Source: Blattamonas nauphoetae
Taxonomy: Eukaryota; Preaxostyla; Oxymonadida
Assembly: GCA_033064195.1 (NCBI GenBank)
Contig: JARBJD010000073.1
Span: forward strand, 62,001-126,000
Length of the DNA: 64,000 nucleotides
Direction of reading: 5' to 3'
Within the stretch, counting starts at the first letter, position 1. Each line of letters begins with the position of its first letter. Position numbers and translations under genes: made by a program. The notes under the pieces are model-generated. The model was not told the origin of the DNA. It was given only the letters and a program-made list of their open reading frames with translations, and ran no database searches. This document shows positions 26,749 through 63,500 of the stretch, one piece after another.

Positions 26749-29700
26749 ATGTTATGGGCTGATCAAAAATCACTCACGATGGATCATTCATCTCAGAATT
26801 CATCCTCTCCCAGCCAACCCCGATTGACTGAAGAGGATCCCACTGTAGTTTCCAGCCTGGTTCCGTCTCAGATACAGTCGATTCCATCAATTTTAGATAT
26901 CGAAGTTGTTCAGCTCCCTTCTTCCTCAAAGTCGCCGTTATCATCTTCCTCTCCCTCACATCAACAAGCATCGTCAACAGAAGCCAACCCACCGATTGTA
27001 AAAACGAAACGGCAGAGGGCTGAAAGTGGAAGTGAATTGTCAAGAAGGGATGGAAACACCTCGTCATCCAAAACAGAAAATGACAACCGACGACGACAAC
27101 GAAAATTGAATCGAAAGCGAAGAAAGGAAGAACATTCTTCACGGAGTTCAGCCAATCTCCACCATCGAAATGGTTCTGAACGAAGCCATGAAAATGAAGA
27201 AAGTAACTCTCGAGATTCGTCAAGTACATCTGCCAGTCGATCCAGACATCGTCGAGGTCGGAAGTTGAATAAAACCCACGCAAGGCAGCACAACTCTCAT
27301 TCAACATCTTCAAACTCGTCTGTATCCCAAAAACGACACAGACGAAACCGCCGTCGACGCAGACATTCAAGTCCAGAGGAGGGATCTGACCGAATGCGAG
27401 ATGGCCTGAACATGCAGCAAGAACTTGAGAATGATGAAATCAGTCATTCAGAACAACCAAACCTCGATTCGGAAGAAATGATGGCGAAGGACACGACGAT
27501 TGAAGAGTTGGAAGAAGGAGTGGAAAGACTGAAGGAACATGAGAAGGCAGCTGAAATTGCTCGAAGAGAAGCTGAAACAAGAATCCACCATCTTCAGGTT
27601 GAAAAACATGACGCCGAGAACTATCTGAAGGAATCGAGAGAACGAAAGAAGAGGGCAGAGGAGATGAAGATAAAGGCAAATCGGGACAGAAAGAAAGCAG
27701 AAGCGGAGCGAGAGATGATGGAAGAAGAAAGCAGAAAGGCAGAAGAGACGATTCGAAAAGTGGAAGAAGAGCTGCGGATGGCTGAGGACGAACAAAAACA
27801 AGCTGAGGAACAAAAAGTCCAGACGCAACACGAAAGAGAGATGATGTCAACTGAAGTAAAGAGACTGAGAGAGGAACTTGAACAAGCAATGTTTGAGGAG
27901 AAGAATACTCTGCAATCAGAAAACGACGATTTGAAGCTTCAAATTGCCGATGTCCCGATTTGGGTTGGAACTGAAGCTCTCCAAACACTCGACGGAACTG
28001 TTCACACACTCACTCCAACCACTCTCACCCAAATTATCAAACTCGAAAAGAATAGTAAGAGAACAGCTTTCACTTTTCCGATCGACGAGGGAGAATGGGA
28101 ACTGAAAATCAGAGCAAGTGACAACACATTCAAGAATGTGAGTGTGTTCTTCTCTTTTCTTATCTGTTCAGTGCTTGGCTACATCAAGTATCCTCTTCCA
28201 GAAAACGCCACACAAAGAAGTTGTGGATCACATGACATTGGGATTGGTGGACATTTCAACCTTTGGATTGGAAGGATGTGGAAAGGAGGAGAATTCAAGC
28301 CAGAAGGAACAAACAAGAAATGCAATCGAGTTGGACAGACAGCAGCGATTCGAGTGAACATGACGACGCGAGAAGCTCGACTGTTTGTGGACGATGAGGA
28401 ACAGCCTGGGATCTTCACCGACATCCCTTCTCCTCTCTGCCTCGGAATCTCAACACAAAATGAGAATCAATCAGTTGAACTGCTGTGGCTGAAACGATTT
28501 CGAGGAAATGATGAACTCGAGCGAGTAGCGCTTGAAGAGAGGATAACTCAGAAATCTGAATTCGGTAAATTGAAACTGCAGCAGGTCGATCTTCCGATTT
28601 GGGTTGGAACTGAATCTCTCCAAACACTCGACAGAACTGCTCACACACTCACTCCAACCACTCTCACCCAAATCATCAAACTCGAAAAGGATTGGAGAAC
28701 AGCTTTCACTATTCCGATCGACGAGGGGGAATGGGAACTGAAAATCAGAGCAAGTGAAAACGATTTCGTGCCTGTGAGTGTGTTCTTGTCTCTTTTCATC
28801 TTTTCAGTGCTTGGCTTCCTCAGACATCCTCTTCCTGAAGATGCTCCACAAAAATATTGTGGATCCTATCACAGTGGGATTGGTGGTGATTTCATTCTTT
28901 GGGATGGAAGAATGTGGCAAGGAGGGAAAGAATTCAAACCAGTTGGAACAAACAAGAAGTGTGATCGAATTGGACAGACAGCAACGATTCGAGTGAACAT
29001 GTCGACTCGAGAAGCTCGACTGTTTGTGGACGATGAGGAACAATCTGGGATCTTCACCGACATCCCTTCTCCTCTCTGCCTCGGAATTTCAACGCACAAT
29101 GAGAATCACTCTGTTGAAGTGCTGTGGCTCAAACGACTCCGAGGAAACAATGAACTTGAACAATCAGCGCTTGAAGAGAGGAGAACACGTAAATTGGAAA
29201 CCGAGAACTGGAAATTGCAACTGGCTGGTCTTCCGATTTGGGTTGGAACTGAATCACTCCAAACACTCGACAGAACTGTTCACTCGCTCACTCCAACCAC
29301 TCTCACGCAAATCAACAAACATGAACTCGGATGTTGGAGAACAACATTCACTCTTCCGATCAACGAGGGAGAGTGGGAGCTCAAAATCAGTGGACAAGAT
29401 ACAAGTTGGCAAGTGAGTGTGATTTTCTCTCTTTTCATCTTTTAAGTGCTTGGGTTCGTCAGATATCCACTTCCAGAAAACGCCACACAAAGAAGTTGTG
29501 GATTGTATTCTGGTGGGATTGGTGGTGATTTCGTTGTTTGGAGTGGAAGCATGTGGCGAAGAGGAGAATTCAAGCCAAAGGGAATAAACAAGAAGTGTGA
29601 TCGAGTTGGACAGACAGCAGCGATTCGAGTGAACATGACGACGCGAGAAGCTCGACTGTTTGTGGACGATGAGGAACAGCCTGGGATCTTCACCGACATC

Positions 29701-31081
29701 CCTTCTCCTCTCTGCCTTGGAATCTCAACTGAATTCCATGATGTCAATCTCTCAGTTGAAGTGTTGTGGCTGAAACGACTCCGAGGAAACGATGAACTGG
29801 AACGATCAGCGCTTGAAGAGAGGAGAACTCAGAAGTTGGAATCCGAGAAATGGAAATTGCAACTGGCTGGTCTACCGATTTGGGTTGGAACTGAATCTCT
29901 CCAAACACTCGACCGAACTGCTCACGCTCTCACTCCAACCACTCTCACACAAATCATGACACTTGAACCTGGGGGAAATTGGAGAACATCATTCACTTTT
30001 CCGATCGACGAGGGTGAGTGGGAACTCAAACTCAGAAAATCAGAACGGGCCAGATCGTCGGTTAGTGTGTTCTTCTCTCTTCTCATCTTTTCAGTGCTTG
30101 GCTTCCTCAGACATCCACTTCCTGACAATGCAACACAAAACCAGTGTGGATCCTATCGCAGTGGGATTGGTGGTGATTTCATTCTTTGGGATGGACGAAT
30201 TTGGAGAGAAGGGAAAGAATTCAAGCCAGCGGGAACAAACAAGAAATGCGATCAAGCTGGGCAGACAGCAGCAATTCGAGTGAACATGTCGACTCGAGAA
30301 GCTCGACTGTTTGTGGACGATGAGGAACAGCCTGGGATCTTCACCGACATCCCTTCTCCTCTCTGCCTCGGAATTTCAACGCACAATGAGAATCACTCTG
30401 TTGAAGTGTCGTGGCTGAAACGACTCCGAGGAAACGACGAACTGGAACAATCAGCGCTTGAAGAGAGGAGAACTCAGAAGTTGGAAAGCGAACAATTGAA
30501 ATTGCAACTGGCTGGTCTTCCGATTTGGGTTGGAACTGAATCACTCCAAACACTCGACAGCACAGCTCACAGACTCACTCCAACCACTCTCACACAACTC
30601 ATCGAGACTTCAAACGACGATCCATGGAGAACCGCATTCACTTTTCCGATCAACGAGGGTGAGTGGGAACTCAAATTAAGATCATGTGAGGACGACTTCT
30701 TGAATGTGCGTGTGTTCTTCTTTCTTCTTCACCATTTCAGTGCTTGGCTTCCTCAGGCATCCACTTCCTGAAAATGCCACACAAAACGGTTGTGGATGCT
30801 ATGGATTTGGAATTGGTGGACATTTCATTCTTTGGAAAGGAGGCATGTGGAAAGAAGGGAAAGAATTCAAGCCAGAAGGAACAAACAAGAAATGCAATCG
30901 AATTGGACAGATAGCAGCGATTCGAGTGAACATGTCGACTCGAGAAGCTCGACTGTTTGTGGACGATGAGGAACAGCCTGGGATCTTCACCGACATCCCT
31001 TCTCCTCTCTGCCTCGGAATCTCGACAGGTGGGCAGACGCAACATCTTGAAGTTCTCTGGCTGAAGCGACTCCGATCCTAA
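26749..31081 (+). CDS. Coiled-coil protein with five tandem SPRY-like repeats
   Basis: The start (26749, or the Met at 26779) follows the inverted paralogue at 64000. Residues 1-240 are Ser/Arg/Lys-rich and probably disordered (RRRQRKLNRKRRKEEHSSR). About 246-400 is a long coiled coil (TIEELEEGVERLKEHEKAAE onward). Then come five repeats of about 190 residues, starting near 27940, 28580, 29220, 29860 and 30510. Each reads PIWVGTESLQTLDRTAHTLTP, TFPIDEGEWELKI, a tiny intron, LGFLRHPLPENAT, GIGGHFILWKGGMW, VNMSTREARLFVDDEEQPGI and DIPSPLCLGIS, and ends with a linker helix, LKRLRGNDELEQSALEERR. The V-N-M-x-x-R-x-A-x-x-F-V-D-D strand recalls SPRY/B30.2 folds. Introns are 30, 30, 30, 30 and 31 nt. 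A scaffold or ligand-binding role is inferred. Confidence 0.8.
29417..29446 (+). other. 30-nt intron containing an in-frame stop
   Basis: GTGTGATT...TTTTAAG in the third SPRY-like repeat. The in-frame TAA at 29443-29445 ends the unspliced frame; removing exactly these 30 nt joins the reading to LGFVRYPLPENAT in frame. The equivalent introns lie at 28142-28171, 28778-28807 and 30065-30094, all 30 nt. Confidence 0.8.
30710..30740 (+). other. 31-nt intron that restores the frame
   Basis: GTGTGTTC...CATTTCAG in the fifth repeat. It is the only 31-nt member of the set. The upstream frame runs into a stop at 30769-30771 if unspliced, and the downstream part of the repeat is in another frame; removal gives NVLLGFLRHPLP. 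This length difference is direct evidence of splicing. Confidence 0.85.
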
Positions 31082-49862: not shown

Positions 49863-51702
49863 ATGACAATTAGTCTGTTTCTCGTGTTCTCCCCTTCTCT
49901 TCATTTAGGATTTGTCGTTCAACAAGATCAGCACCATCGAACACTCTGTTTTCTCAACCCTTCTCGAACTGCGCTTGACCCGCAATCAACTCCGCTCATT
50001 TCCACACAACATCAACATCCTCTTTCCTGTTCTTCATTCCCTTTCACTCACTCCAAATCGGTTTGTTATTCGAATTGTGATGGTTTTCAGAATCAAGAAA
50101 TGTGCGCTCCTTGACCATTCCACTCTGACAGTGCTGGATCTGAGCCGAAACAACATTTCGTCGATCGACAAGCCTCTTGTTGTCCCGACGCTGACATCTC
50201 TTTCGCTGGCACTGAACAGGCTGACGTCGTTCGTTCTGCCGAATGGCTCGCAGCTGCCCTGCCTCCAAATATTGGACCTCCGAATGAACTATTTGGAGAC
50301 ACTGAACGAACAAGTGTGTTTCTCTCCTTTTCACACTTTTCAGGCATTTGAATCACTTCCGACGATCAAATCACTTTATCTGACATCGAACGAACTGGAG
50401 TCTCTCCCCGACAGACTCGGTGACATTCTGCCGAACCTTTCGACGGTGTGGGTTGGATCGAACCGATTGAAGACGCTTCCGAGTTCGTATAGTGACTTGA
50501 TAGTGTGTTCTTTTTCGTTGTTCTTGTTTTCAGAATCCAATTGACATTTTCGGTGGGACGAACGAACTTGTGAGTTGCCCAGCTTTTTTGATGAGGTCGA
50601 CGGGGGACCTTCGCGTGGACATCCCAAACAATCGTCTTCGGACGCTTCCTCGGCTGAGTTGTGATGTTGTTGTTTTCTCTGCGGATTCGAGCCGGATCTC
50701 TGAAATTGGGGAAGGTGTGGAACGTCTTGTTTGTGATTATAGTTCAGATGTGTTTGCATGGCCGTCTCGAATGAAAAGGGTATCGCTGAAAGACAACCTG
50801 ATTTCGTCGCTTCCGAAAACGCTGGTCACACTCCCCCTGACGTGCATCTTGCTTGCAGACAATTTGCTGACCGATCTCCTAGATGGATTGTTTACGCTTC
50901 CAATCTTGCAGACGTTGGATGTTTCGTTCAACTCGCTCGCGATCATTCCGCCCTCGATCTCTCAACTGACATCGCTTGTGAAAGTGAATTTTGGATTCAA
51001 ACAAATCAACGCTGTTCCAAATGAGCTGTTTCATATCCCCACTCTGACACACCTGATCCTGTCACACAACAAATTGACGTCGCTCCCAACTGATCCGGCG
51101 ATGTCCCCAAAAGTTGAGTTGTCTCTTGGATTCGTGGATCCACTGAGCAATTCGATGATATATAAGAAAACCGGGACAGGGGCGCATCCTGGAGCGGTTC
51201 TCTGTCGTCTGGAGCGTCTGTTGTTTGCGTCGATCCTTCTGACCTCTGTGCCCCCGCTTGTGTCACGATTTCGGACTTTCCACACACTTTCGCTGGCTGC
51301 GAACGGGATTTCTGAGCTTCTGCGAGATTTCTTCCGCTCACTGCCAAACTTGAGTCGTCTGGACTTATCGTTCACCGGACTCACCCATCCGCAAGAATCG
51401 ACTGGTTCGGGAACACGAAACGGATCTCGCTGGATGTGTCGTTCAACAACTTGACGTCGCTGCCGCACTTTCTTGTTGATTCGAACAGTTTGCTGCACCA
51501 ATCGCAGTTGCTGTCTCTCTGCCAGCGATTCTTCGGAACATGCACTCCACACACCCCAGCCACACCGACACTGACGTCTCCCGTCACACTGCTGCTGGAC
51601 TGGTCTGGGAGTCGTCAGTATGAGTTCAGGCGACAAATGGAGACGCCGAGGTGCCAGTTTGGGCTTCTGAACGTGTGGCTAAACTTCCTCCCATTCGACT
51701 GA
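49863..51702 (+). CDS. Leucine-rich repeat protein with tiny introns
   Basis: Four small introns can be placed: 49884-49908 (25 nt), 50061-50090 (30), 50314-50343 (30) and 50503-50533 (31). Splicing gives a continuous run of LRRs: DLSFNKISTIEHSVF, LTVLDLSRNNISSIDK, LTSLSLALNRLTSFVLP, LQILDLRMNYLETLNEQ, IKSLYLTSNELESLPDRL, LSTVWVGSNRLKTLPSS, LPILQTLDVSFNSLAIIPPSI and LTHLILSHNKLTSLPT. Near 51405 one base is missing relative to the 5.9-kb paralogue; beyond it the reading resumes as LDVSFNNLTSLPHFLVDSNS up to 51702. The acidic tail of the other LRR gene is absent. The shift may mean decay or an assembly error. The likely role is protein binding, without visible membrane or secretion signals. Confidence 0.7.
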
Positions 51703-57522: not shown

Positions 57523-60500
57523 TTAGGATCGGAGTCGCTTCAGCCAGAGAACTTCAAGATGTTGCGTCTGCCCACCTGTCGAGATTCCGAGGCAGAGAGG
57601 AGAAGGGATGTCGGTGAAGATCCCAGGCTGTTCCTCATCGTCCACAAACAGTCGAGCTTCTCGCGTCGACATGTTCACTCGAATCGCTGCTGTCTGTCCA
57701 ACACGAACGCATTTCTTGTTTGTTCCTTCTGGCTTGAATTCTTGCCCGTCTTTCCACATGCCTCCTGTCCAAAGAATGAAATGTCCACCAATCCCATTTA
57801 TCCAATATCCACAATCGTGTTGTGTGGCATCTTCAGGAAGTGGATGTCTGATGAAGCCAGGTTCTGAGAAGGTGAGAAGAGAGAAGAACACACTCACATT
57901 CAAGAAACTGTTTTCACTGGCTCTGATTCTGAGTTCCCACTCGCCTTCGTCGATCGGAAAAGTGAATGCGGTTCTCCATGGATCGTCGTTGGTAGTCACG
58001 ATGAGTTGTGTGAGAGTGGTTGGAGTGAGTCTGTGAGCTGTGCTGTCGAGTGTTTGGAGTGATTCTGTTCCAACCCAAATCGGAAGACCAGCCAGCTGCA
58101 ATTTCAATTGTTCGCTTTCCAATTTCTGTGTTCTCCTCTCCTCAAGCGCCGATTGTTCCAGTTCATTGGCCTGTTAAGCTGTGTCCAGTCGAGGTGGGAT
58201 TGTCCAGTCCAATGTCCAGTCTCCTATTTGGGCGATGAGAGATCTGACCCATGATATTGGTTATTTGGCTCCGAACATATTTTCTCCGCAGGGATTGTTA
58301 AATGAACGATTTGTCGTTGTGTACATGAAATGCACCCCAAATAAAACCAATTGAAAGAAAAAGATATTTCAGTTTACAACTTTGCGAGGATCTGTACTGT
58401 TGATGTGAGATCTCGTATTCTTGCTGATATCTTGTTAGTTGGGCCGATATGTTCCTTTCCTCCCATGAATATAAAAACGCCGCTGCAGTTTATTCATTCT
58501 TATCTTTGTTGTGAACGACGTGCTGGGCAGCCACAATCGTAACATGTGCAATGAGGAGTGATGCAGATAACCAACACGGGGAAAGAACTGGAATGAGAGA
58601 GAAGAAAATGAATGAGGCATGCGGAATGACAAACAAGAGAAATGTGGACATCCGGAGGTGTCAACAACAATCTCGTTCAAAAAGACATACTGACCCGACC
58701 ATCAACCACAGAGGTGAAGAGAATCATCATCGACACTGAGTTTCCCGAAGTTAGAAGAGTTGTGCCGCAGTAACCCAACTCCTTGGAGAAATAGTTCGAT
58801 GAGTCATAGACAGCCTTTTTGATTCCGCCAAGACAGTTACGCGGTACTTCTCTGATGAATTGGTTCGAGCACACACAGCGTTGATACTTGTGGAGATGAG
58901 GGCTTGGGTGTGGTTGAGAGTGGACCTAAACATGATACCAAGAATCATCACAATTGCTGTGAATATCCGTCAAGGTATCCAGAATACAAATTCTTGCATT
59001 TGACTGCAATTCTTTGGAAATATGCGGATGATTCCAAACAGGAGCAGAGGCGTGTCCAGAACACAATCAATGGTGATCGAGCAGGTCAGCGCTCACCAAT
59101 GCGTTTGGACAAATATATCTGGAAGATGAGGAAAAACATGAAAGAGAACATACTGTAGAGGATGAATCTGTGCATACGAGCAGTAGAGATTCATATTCCA
59201 ATGAAAAAGAACTCATTCCCCCACATTGTGAGGAGTCATCATGCAATGAATCTCAGTTGCTATGAGAAGAGAAGAATTGAAAGAATGAGCAGAAGAAGCA
59301 AACAAACATTGATTAAGACAACAGGGAAGATATAAATGATCACACAGATCATCCCAACGATTGACATAGCCGCAGAAGCGACCTGAATACAGAGAATATC
59401 GGATTCCACATCATAAATTGAAGAAACTCAAGAAAGTTGATCTCACCAGTGAAAAAGTCACGTATCATCGAGGCAGAACTTTGAGGAAAGGATGCGAAAC
59501 GAAGGCTGGAACAGAAAGGAATAAAAGAAGAATTTAGAATGAGAAATTCACACATTTGAGTTCAAGCATAGAGATTCGATGGTGATATCAATCGTGGGGT
59601 GAGAGATGTTGTGTCTGGGGAAGAATGAATGAATTCTAGATCTGTTGACTTTGCGTCGCGATTTATGACCCCACGGTATTTCAAAACCGAGACGAAGTCG
59701 CCTAGTATTCAAAAAAAGTGAGAGAGACATGTGAACATCAAACCGTAATTGAGATGAGGATGTAACTCAATCCCTTAATAGGTGTCGATTGGACAGTCCA
59801 GGACTGGACAGTCCATTGGACTGTCCAATTTTGCCGACTCGTCAAAACCTCAATAAACGGGATGCACTAATTGTGTAGACTTCAGAAAAAAAATTTCAGC
59901 GAAATGTCCAGTCACGTCCAATGACGTCCAATGGTGGGTGGATCAAGTCGAGATTCACACTTGGCTAAATATGATCAAATTATCTCCATTTCGCTATTTC
60001 TTAAGTGATTATTGTCATTTCTTTGTGAAAATGATTGAATGAGTGAATTGAGGATGAGAGAAGCAAGTCTAAAAATGAATGTCCAATAGAGGTCGATTGT
60101 CCAGTCCAACATTGGCAACGTCCAATCCAATTAACATGCCAACCAGTTCATCGTTTCCTCGAAATCGTTTCAGCCACAAGACTTCAACTGATAGATTCTC
60201 AGAACGGAATCCAGTTGTGATTCCGAAGCAGAGAGGAGAAGGGATGTCGGTGAAGATCCCAGGCTGTTCCTCCTCGTCCACAAACAGTCGAGCTTCTCTC
60301 GTCCTCATGTTCACTCGAATCGCTGCTGTCTGCCCAGCTCGATCGCATTTCTTATTTGTTCCTGCTGGTTTGAATTCTTTCCCTGCATGCCACATCCCTC
60401 CCTTCCACAGAGAGAAGTCACCTCCAATCCCACTTCCATAGTATCCACACTGGAATTGTGAGGCATTGTCAGGAAGTGGATGTCTGAGAAAGCCAAGCAC

Positions 60501-63500
60501 TGAAAAGATGAGAAGTGAGAAGAACACACTAACCAACAAGCTGGCCTGTACTGATCCTCTGATTTTGAGTTCCCACTCTCCCTCGTCGATCGGAAAAGTG
60601 AATGCGGTTCTCCATGAATCGTCGTCTGAAGTCACGATGAGTTGTGTGAGTGTTGTTGGAGTAAGTGAGTGAACAGTTCTGTCGAGTGTTTGGAGTGATT
60701 CGGTTCCAACCCAAATCGGAAGACCAGTCAGTTGTAGTTTCCATTTCGAGGATTCCAGCTTCTGAGTTCTCCTCTCTTCAAGCGTTGATTGTTCCAGTTC
60801 ATCGTTTCCTCGGAGTCGTTTCAGCCACAGCACTTCAACCAGGGTTCAAAATTTCCACAGTCGACCGATCATGTCACAATACCTTTTGAATCATCTTTTT
60901 TTCGTATGAAAGTTGTGGCGAAGCTCAACCGAGACTTTATTTGTGAAATCAGCATTTGAATATGATGAAAATGCATCCATCTTTCCAACACGACATTCCC
61001 GTCCAAAATATCAATCAAAGAATGAGAAAAATAAAAATGCATACATTTTTCGGAGGAGAAATGACGATGATCGAGCATGAGTCGTGACGACGGGATTCTG
61101 AGATGAGTTTTGCCAACAGGAACAATTCATGGACTTTAACAGGCAGAATGTCATCCAGGTTCAGAGAACACTGACAAGATCGTTGAAAAAGGGAAAATAA
61201 TCATAAATATCAGTGATTCACTTCATGAATAAAACAAAAATCAAGGAACAAATCTTCAGGCGTGATCTGAGGTGTATCCCGGGCTCCAAGATACTGTCAA
61301 TGGAGATGAGATCTCACAGAAGGATAGAATGAGGATTTTGACTGGAAAAGGTGGCAAATCGTAATCTTTCCGAAGATCACTGGAACAACCCATAAACAGT
61401 GCGTTTTCGGAAGAAGTGCAAAAAGACAATAATGAAAAATGGTTCAATGAGATGAAGAACAAGTGGAGAACACGTTTTGAAATGATATGTACCGATTCAA
61501 ACCGTCGGTGTATACGAACTCGATCCCTTCAAGTCATTTCCAAGTCAGTTTCCAAGGGGCCAAGGCAGTCTCCACAGGGGTCCCCTTGGAAAAAGACCCG
61601 CCTTGGCAAGTTTCGAACCCTGACTTCAACTGATCGATTCTCACTGTGTGTTGAGATTCCGATGCAGAGAGGAGAAGGGATGTCGGTGAAGGTCCCAGGC
61701 TGTTCCACATCGTCCACAAACAGTCGAGCTTCTCGCGTCGACATGTTCACTCGAATCGCTGCTGTCTGTCCAACTCGATCCCACTTCTTGTTTGTTCCTT
61801 CTGGTTTGAATTCTCCTCCTTTCCACATTCCTCCATCCCAAAGAGTGAAATCACCTCCAATCCCACTGTGATAGGAGCCACAATGTTTTTGTGTGGCATC
61901 TTCAGGTAGTGGATGTCTGAGAAAGCCAAGCACAGAAAAGATGAGAAAAAAGATGAACAAACTCACATTCCAAAGTGGGTCATTTCCTCTGATTTTGAGT
62001 TCCCACTCACCCTCGTCGATCGGAAAAGAGAATGCGGTTCTCCACTCCTTGTTCTTTTCGAATTTGACAATTTGGGTGAGAGTGGTTGGAGTGAGTCTGT
62101 GAGCTTTTCCGTCGAGTGTTCGGAGGGATTCAGTTCCAATCCAGATTGGAAGATCGACCAGCTTCAGTTTCAATTCGTCGTTCTGCGATTTCAGGGTTTT
62201 TTTCTCCTCAAGCGCGGCTCTTTCGAGTTCATCATTTCGTCGTCGTTTGAGCCACAGTACTTCCACAGGGGAATCAGTCATTGATATCCCAGTTGAGATA
62301 CCGAGGCAGAGAGGAGAAGGGATGTCGGTGAAGATCCCAGGCTGTTCCTCATCGTCCACAAACAGTCGGGCTTCTCTGGTCGACATGTTCACTCGAATCG
62401 CTGCTGTCTGCCCAGCTCGATCGCATTTCTTGTTTGTCCCTTCTGGCTTGAATTCTTTCCCAGAATGCCACATGTCTCCCTCCCAGAGACCGAAGTCACC
62501 ACCAATCCCACTTTGATAGGCTCCACAATGACCTCGTGTCGCACTGTCAAGAAGAGGAGGTCTGATGTAGCCAAGTGCTCAAAGGATGAGAAGAGAGAAG
62601 AACATACTCACATGCCAATTTGTGTCGTTTCCTCTGATTTTGAGTTCCCACTCTCCCTCCTCGACCGGAAAAGTGAACACCGCTCTCCAATCGGTGTCCT
62701 TTTCGAGATCGACAATTTGGGTGAGAGTGGTTGGAGTGAGTTTGTAAGCAGTTCGGTCGAATGTCTGAAGTGATTCTGTTCCAACCCAAATCGGGACATC
62801 GGCAATTTGAAGCTTCAAATCGTCGTTTTCTGATTGCAGAGTATTCTTCTCCTCAAACATTGCTTGTTCAAGTTCCTCTCTCAGTCTCTTTACTTCAGTT
62901 GACATCATCTCTCTTTCGTGTTGCGTCTGGACTTTTTGTTCCTCAGCTTGTTTTTGTTCGTCCTCAGCCATCCGCAGCTCTTCTTCCACTTTTCGAATCG
63001 TCTCTTCTGCCTTTCTGCTTTCTTCTTCCATCATCTCTCGCTCCGCTTCTGCTTTCTTTCTGTCCCGATTTGCCTTTATCTTCATCTCCTCTGCCCTCTT
63101 CTTTCGTTCTCTCGATTCCTTCAGATAGTTCTCGGCGTCATGTTTTTCAACCTGAAGATGGTGGATTCTTGTTTCAGCTTCTCTTCGAGCAATTTCAGCT
63201 GCCTTCTCCTGCTCCTTCAGTCTTTCCACTCCTTCTTCCAACTCTTCAATCGTCGTGTCCTTAACCATCACTTCTTCCGAATCGAGGTTTGGTTGTTCTG
63301 AATGACTGATTTCATCATTCTCAAGTTCTTGCTGCATGTTCAGGCCATCTCGCATTCGGTCAGATCCCTCCTCTGGACTTGAATGTCTGCGTCGACGGCG
63401 GTTTCGTCTGTGTCGTTTTTGGGATACAGACGAGTTTGAAGATGTTGAATGAGAGTTGTGCTGCCTTGCGTGGGTTTTATTCAACTTCCGACCTCGACGA

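Follow-up and report, generated by a model that had tools for sequence, protein, structure and literature searches.

Thirty-nucleotide introns at one site of a multiplied SPRY-fold domain in the oxymonad Blattamonas nauphoetae

We found that the gene BLNAU_10171 of Blattamonas nauphoetae carries one stretch of 30 or 31 nt in each of its five SPRY-like domains, and that these stretches are almost certainly near-minimum-length U2-type spliceosomal introns, inherited at one site of a multiplied SPRY-fold domain. B. nauphoetae is an oxymonad, a flagellate of the cockroach gut, and the gene lies in a window of 64,000 nt, which is the whole stretch of DNA that was analysed. As spliceosomal introns with exact ends, the five stretches are well supported by the deposited gene model, by paralogous copies of the site, by pairing of the donor with U1 and by restoration of the reading frame. 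The SPRY-fold domain would have multiplied in B. nauphoetae while carrying the intron at one position.

Five introns in BLNAU_10171

The gene, its domain array and its short introns are located in the window as follows.

27170..31081, + strand: gene BLNAU_10171, 1215 aa, five SPRY-like domains (deposited model, fold from a paralogous domain; start uncertain)
27949..31078, + strand: array of five SPRY-like domains with one intron per domain (from the sequence and the repeat spacing; start approximate)
28138..28143, + strand: decoy GTGAGT, 4 nt before the intron's own donor (a 34-nt intron from here would break the frame; weaker U1 pairing)
28142..28171, + strand: intron 1, 30 nt, phase 1, no in-frame stop (excised exactly in deposited BLNAU_10171)
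28778..28807, + strand: intron 2, 30 nt, phase 1 (excised in deposited BLNAU_10171)
29417..29446, + strand: intron 3, 30 nt, phase 1, in-frame TAA at 29443-29445, acceptor TTTTAAG (deposited BLNAU_10171)
30065..30094, + strand: intron 4, 30 nt, phase 1 (excised in deposited BLNAU_10171)
30710..30740, + strand: intron 5, 31 nt, phase 1, removal required by the frame (deposited BLNAU_10171 and frame reading)

A preliminary description had proposed these five stretches as introns from the DNA letters, and each of them is excised exactly in the deposited BLNAU_10171. The deposited protein (P0073) agrees with the window letter for letter once the five stretches and 113 nt near the N-terminus are removed. 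The TAA that had been reported in the third stretch was present, and the claim that the 31-nt stretch must be removed to keep the frame was confirmed by the frame shift that it causes. The five copies of the array are spaced 636-651 nt apart, and each carries one similar intron, as had been described. The shared ending TTTTCAG that had been given for all of them proved looser, with copy 1 ending in CTGTTCAG, copy 3 reading GTGTGATT...TTTTAAG and copy 5 ending in CATTTCAG. An open reading frame scan followed an open frame from 26500 to a stop at 29445, inside intron 3; intron 1 has no in-frame stop, so such a scan cannot see it. The stop codon and the frame change had been offered as proof of splicing. 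Alone they fall short of it, since pseudogene damage in a single gene could give both, and it is the family-wide data below that argue against damage.

The B. nauphoetae gene models come from Augustus, which according to the methods of the genome paper used RNA-seq intron hints and had its training on curated models with transcript support (PMC10703272). As the BLNAU_10171 model already excises all five introns, the finding is implicit in the public annotation. The same model also excises a 113-nt intron at 27264-27376 (+), whose donor GTTGAA departs from the GTNTG rule. Since the genomic frame stays open from 26500 even if this stretch is kept, the N-terminus of the deposited protein may be wrong.

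The domain was assigned by fold. A Pfam-A profile search of the proteins supplied gave no SPRY match, and neither did a search of the PDB by sequence (best E 0.086). We modelled the spliced domain of P0049 from a 16-sequence alignment (mean pLDDT 78.4, pTM 0.59), and a fold search with this model gave the SPRY domain of TRIM9 as the best PDB match (E 3.1e-7, TM 0.60 by target length). The best matches were the SPRY/B30.2 domains of TRIM9, TRIM67 and RanBP10, and 48 of the 50 fold matches listed were SPRY domains or complexes containing one; the other two were beta-sandwich entries. In the P0049 model, the intron junction falls where the strand predicted for residues 141-147 begins.

The intron site across the domain family

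We surveyed the site in an assembly of 88.3 Mb in 837 contigs; the published genome is given as 88.5 Mb in 879 contigs (PMC10703272). Sites were extracted from an upstream exon anchor (100 listed of 201 genome matches) and from matches to the intron pattern, which yielded 132 rows; filtering the anchors more strictly and dropping duplicates left 116. Copies whose upstream exon or intron is conserved were more likely to be caught by this sampling. An AG acceptor and an in-phase GTNTG donor were found in 108 of the 116 rows, all at the same phase-1 site, and a recount found no site entered twice among them. The eight excluded rows comprised two false anchors (L048), one weak match (L047), two loci lacking a frame-compatible donor (L035 and L067), an intronless fragment (L051), the minus-strand window copy without AG and one row with its profile out of place (L097). 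The spliceosomal reading is weakened by L035 and L067, in which no GTNTG donor fits the frame, and by the copy without AG. The lengths at the common site (n = 108) were 30 nt in 96 copies, 31 nt in five, 32 nt in three, and 39, 67, 135 and 151 nt in one each. In all ten copies whose length is not a multiple of three, excision gives a SPRY frame without stops throughout the part displayed, while the unspliced sequence departs from the SPRY frame.

The same position is occupied in sister gene BLNAU_10181 and a further domain copy of the window.

57864..57893, - strand: 30-nt intron-like stretch at the same position, further domain copy (sequence, site extraction)
60500..60529, - strand: 30-nt intron at the same position in BLNAU_10181 (deposited model)
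61933..61962, - strand: same intron position with the acceptor lost, TTTTCTG (sequence, site extraction)
62578..62607, - strand: 30-nt intron at the same position in BLNAU_10181, with an in-frame TGA (deposited model)

At the copy with the lost acceptor, the BLNAU_10181 model uses an odd 129-nt intron instead (62045-61917). Deposited proteins resembling the window repeats came from B. nauphoetae in 72 of 72 matches, and in 40 of 40 in a second search. Searches of the whole window with Rfam at the gathering threshold and with ARAGORN in its bacterial setting gave no match.

The intron-like pattern matched seven times in the window and not once in any of 100 dinucleotide shuffles; genome-wide it gave 86 matches, at least four of which belong to another intron (three on contig C46 and one at window position 50503), against none for the reversed pattern. 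Once 30 nt are taken out, 53 distinct paralogous site sequences fit deposited proteins exactly on either side, although near-identical paralogs may give some cross-matches, and paralogous copies are not independent tests. In six rows the deposited models excise 34 or 36 nt, starting from another GTNTG that lies a few nt farther upstream. Scored across the deposited proteins, 122 sites in 91 proteins comprised 105 that were spliced and eight that keep the 30 nt; inspection of the remaining nine by eye gave one that keeps them (P0075), three spliced and five that could not be classed.

A one-domain fragment lacking exactly 30 nt at the intron site was found at nine places in the genome (L121 1461-1835 and eight others), eight of them identical and one at 97%, which we count as one event. 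The fragment is decayed, being truncated and carrying a stop, and the flanks of one copy showed no further match to the domain loci collected here among the 40 best matches listed. Its simplest reading, from the sequence, would be a retro-copy of a spliced mRNA; a plain deletion is a possible origin as well.

Introner-like mobile introns are similar introns at many unrelated sites. The copies extracted here all lie at one site of one domain, which follows from the design of the search. The intron differs from its consensus at a fraction of 0.04-0.09, and the 30 nt before it at 0.31-0.37, a flank figure partly inflated by indels. Most bases of the 30 nt belong to splice signals, which would help explain why the intron varies less than the flanking exons. 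Counts of synonymous and non-synonymous differences from the consensus were set aside because indels misalign the variable exon parts, and the exon variability figures call for the same caution. The roughly nine codons before each intron (28112-28141, for example) form a variable stretch adjoining the highly conserved intron, possibly a sign of a binding surface under diversifying selection.

An unrelated leucine-rich-repeat gene in the window also becomes one frame after removal of three short stretches, at 50061-50090 (30 nt), 50314-50343 (30 nt) and 50503-50533 (31 nt), whose sequences are unlike the SPRY-site introns. Only the removal of 50503-50533 is forced by the frame; the other two, on the + strand, are intron-like, stop-free and a multiple of three in length. 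Among the Blattamonas leucine-rich-repeat proteins that were mapped (11 of 12 found), none fits this gene letter for letter.

Splice signals and competing readings

Three U1 candidates (L111-L113) scored 67.6 bits, just below the Rfam gathering threshold of 69.5, and begin ..AACATACCTTG, with a 5′ end that reads ACAUACC. This end would pair with the donor GUGUGU, and does so better than with the decoy GTGAGT. The copies of 30 nt number 97, with 62 distinct intron sequences and one lost AG among them; their proposed donor had no mismatch to U1 in 86 and one mismatch in 11. Genome searches also returned U2 (153.2 bits), U6 (88.1 bits) and an SF1-HH domain (54.9 bits), and a UPF1 zinc-binding domain is encoded (119.1 bits).

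The preliminary description held that introns of this size leave little room for a branch site. Room exists: 95 of the 97 copies have an adenosine at position 21, nine nt from the intron end. In 87 of 97 the last adenosine ahead of the final AG is the one nine nt from the end, and in 58 of 97 just one adenosine stands between positions 5 and 28. L050, one of the two copies without A21, lacks any interior adenosine. The context CUCAU fits the branch motif yUnAy, and A21 is the likely branch point, which would be recognised by SF1 and the U2 snRNP, with a pyrimidine tract and CAG after it serving as the acceptor. The leucine-rich-repeat intron at 50503-50533 (+) has no adenosine outside its final AG, and this A-less version also occurs twice on contig C46; it would have either a non-A branch point or be a dead intron.

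GTGAGT is a good donor in animals, and its presence 4 nt upstream in 68 of the 97 copies could suggest introns of 34 or 35 nt. That reading is next to impossible: the upstream donor leads into a stop-containing frame in BLNAU_10171 and is unused in the deposited model, and the GT found at that place in 88 of 97 copies has at least one U1 mismatch in 86 of the 88. It was rejected on frame and U1 pairing. The stretch could instead be a translated hydrophobic insertion, with the stop and the 31-nt copy arising from pseudogene damage or sequencing error. Most copies do read through, and ultra-short, stop-depleted Tetrahymena introns with lengths divisible by three were judged probable annotation artefacts in one survey (PMC5014332). 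Such an insertion is nonetheless extremely improbable given the agreement of donor and U1, the exact absence of the 30 nt in one fragment and deposited models made with RNA-seq hints (PMC10703272), and it was rejected on the lengths of 31, 32, 39, 67, 135 and 151 nt that occur at the same site with intact flanks.

Splicing could also be facultative, with the 30 nt left in part of the mRNAs. With 96 of 108 copies exactly 30 nt long and 92 of the 97 copies of 30 nt free of in-frame stops, retention would be silent. An exitron is a facultative exonic intron whose length is a multiple of three and which has no stop; most copies answer to this, whereas the family does not, as ten of 108 have other lengths and five of 97 carry stops. 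Read in this way, the kept form would carry some ten extra residues, hydrophobic for the most part (VFFSLLIFSV), next to a SPRY strand and act as a switch of a binding domain. The many stop-free copies, the nine deposited sites that keep the 30 nt (one of them judged by eye) and the junction at the start of the predicted strand favour it. On the other side, the five copies with stops match a shuffle mean of 4.4, so that the 30-nt copies show no selection for readability, nor any that favours or disfavours stops. The stretch has no excess of variation at third positions (0.108, 0.050 and 0.085 at codon positions 1, 2 and 3), of which the exons have little either, and the deposited kept forms may be plain annotation gaps. 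We regard exitron-like use as highly improbable. It is likewise very unlikely that the introns keep lengths divisible by three and few stops because retention is tolerated or regulated, such that unspliced mRNA of the large SPRY family would escape nonsense-mediated decay and yield domains with a ten-residue hydrophobic insert beside a variable loop. Since the 30-nt copies probably go back to a small number of ancestors, the excess of lengths divisible by three may be inheritance alone. Excision of these introns in the cell would follow a mechanism that is ordinary as far as it is visible.

Other introns in the deposited models of the SPRY genes are mostly 44-130 nt long, which places the 30-nt class at the short end. 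Genome-wide, the pattern GTATGTTN{7,37}TTTCAG matched 404 times and its reversed form 69 times. Among the 100 matches listed of the 404, 12 were shorter than 30 nt and 88 were 30-50 nt, many of them near-identical; at 80% similarity 39 were left, three of them shorter than 30 nt. This suggests, short of proof, that few true introns below 30 nt exist in the genome and that the edge lies near 30 nt, which is probably close to the minimum for the B. nauphoetae spliceosome.

Comparison with known short introns

The copies form a natural series of some hundred near-minimal introns, all paralogous and at a single site, in an oxymonad rather than a ciliate. The series would allow a test of whether ultra-short introns must avoid lengths divisible by three and carry stops, as ciliates suggest, and the nine deposited sites show that introns of this kind can end up annotated as coding. 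The new part is modest: a class of short introns of about 30 nt in an oxymonad, mostly a multiple of three in length and not enriched in stops, unlike most ciliate classes. Among the papers listed in our literature searches on Blattamonas, on oxymonad introns and on Preaxostyla or intron length, none was seen to report 30-nt B. nauphoetae introns, and the main text of the genome paper has the word "intron" once in its methods and once in the title of a reference (PMC10703272).

These introns are short without setting a record, and the lower limit known for intron length stands. Their nearness to the lower limit of spliceosomes was overstated in the preliminary description, as introns of 15-16 nt in Stentor, 18-20 nt in nucleomorphs and 23 nt in the metamonad Trichomonas have been published. 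The 15- and 16-nt introns of Stentor, about half as long as those of B. nauphoetae, have a branch adenosine nearly always at one position (PMC9505925), and a study of ciliates gives 18-20 bp for nucleomorph introns and about 25 bp for Paramecium (PMC5014332). Trichomonas vaginalis, with introns down to 23 nt, resembles B. nauphoetae in having very short introns and differs in that its branch motif is fused with the 3′ splice site motif (PMC12316389), whereas the candidate motif of B. nauphoetae is CUCAU-like with the adenosine nine nt before the end.

The reported Streblomastix introns share a T-rich 3′ end and, as yeast GUAUGU does, conserve A, U and G at +3 to +5 (PMC1501061). The ACAUACC end of the candidate U1 pairs with GUAUGU-type donors, in line with this conservation. 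The Streblomastix introns are longer, however, at 46-229 bp with an average of 85 in a sample of 21 (PMC1501061), and the mean reported for Monocercomonoides exilis is 119-124 bp (PMC8767320). The ciliates Paramecium, Nyctotherus, Oxytricha and Stentor are alike in their very short introns and narrow length classes. In most ciliate classes, as surveyed, introns with lengths divisible by three are under-represented and enriched in stops (PMC5014332), whereas in B. nauphoetae 98 of 108 copies are a multiple of three and stops occur at the level of chance.
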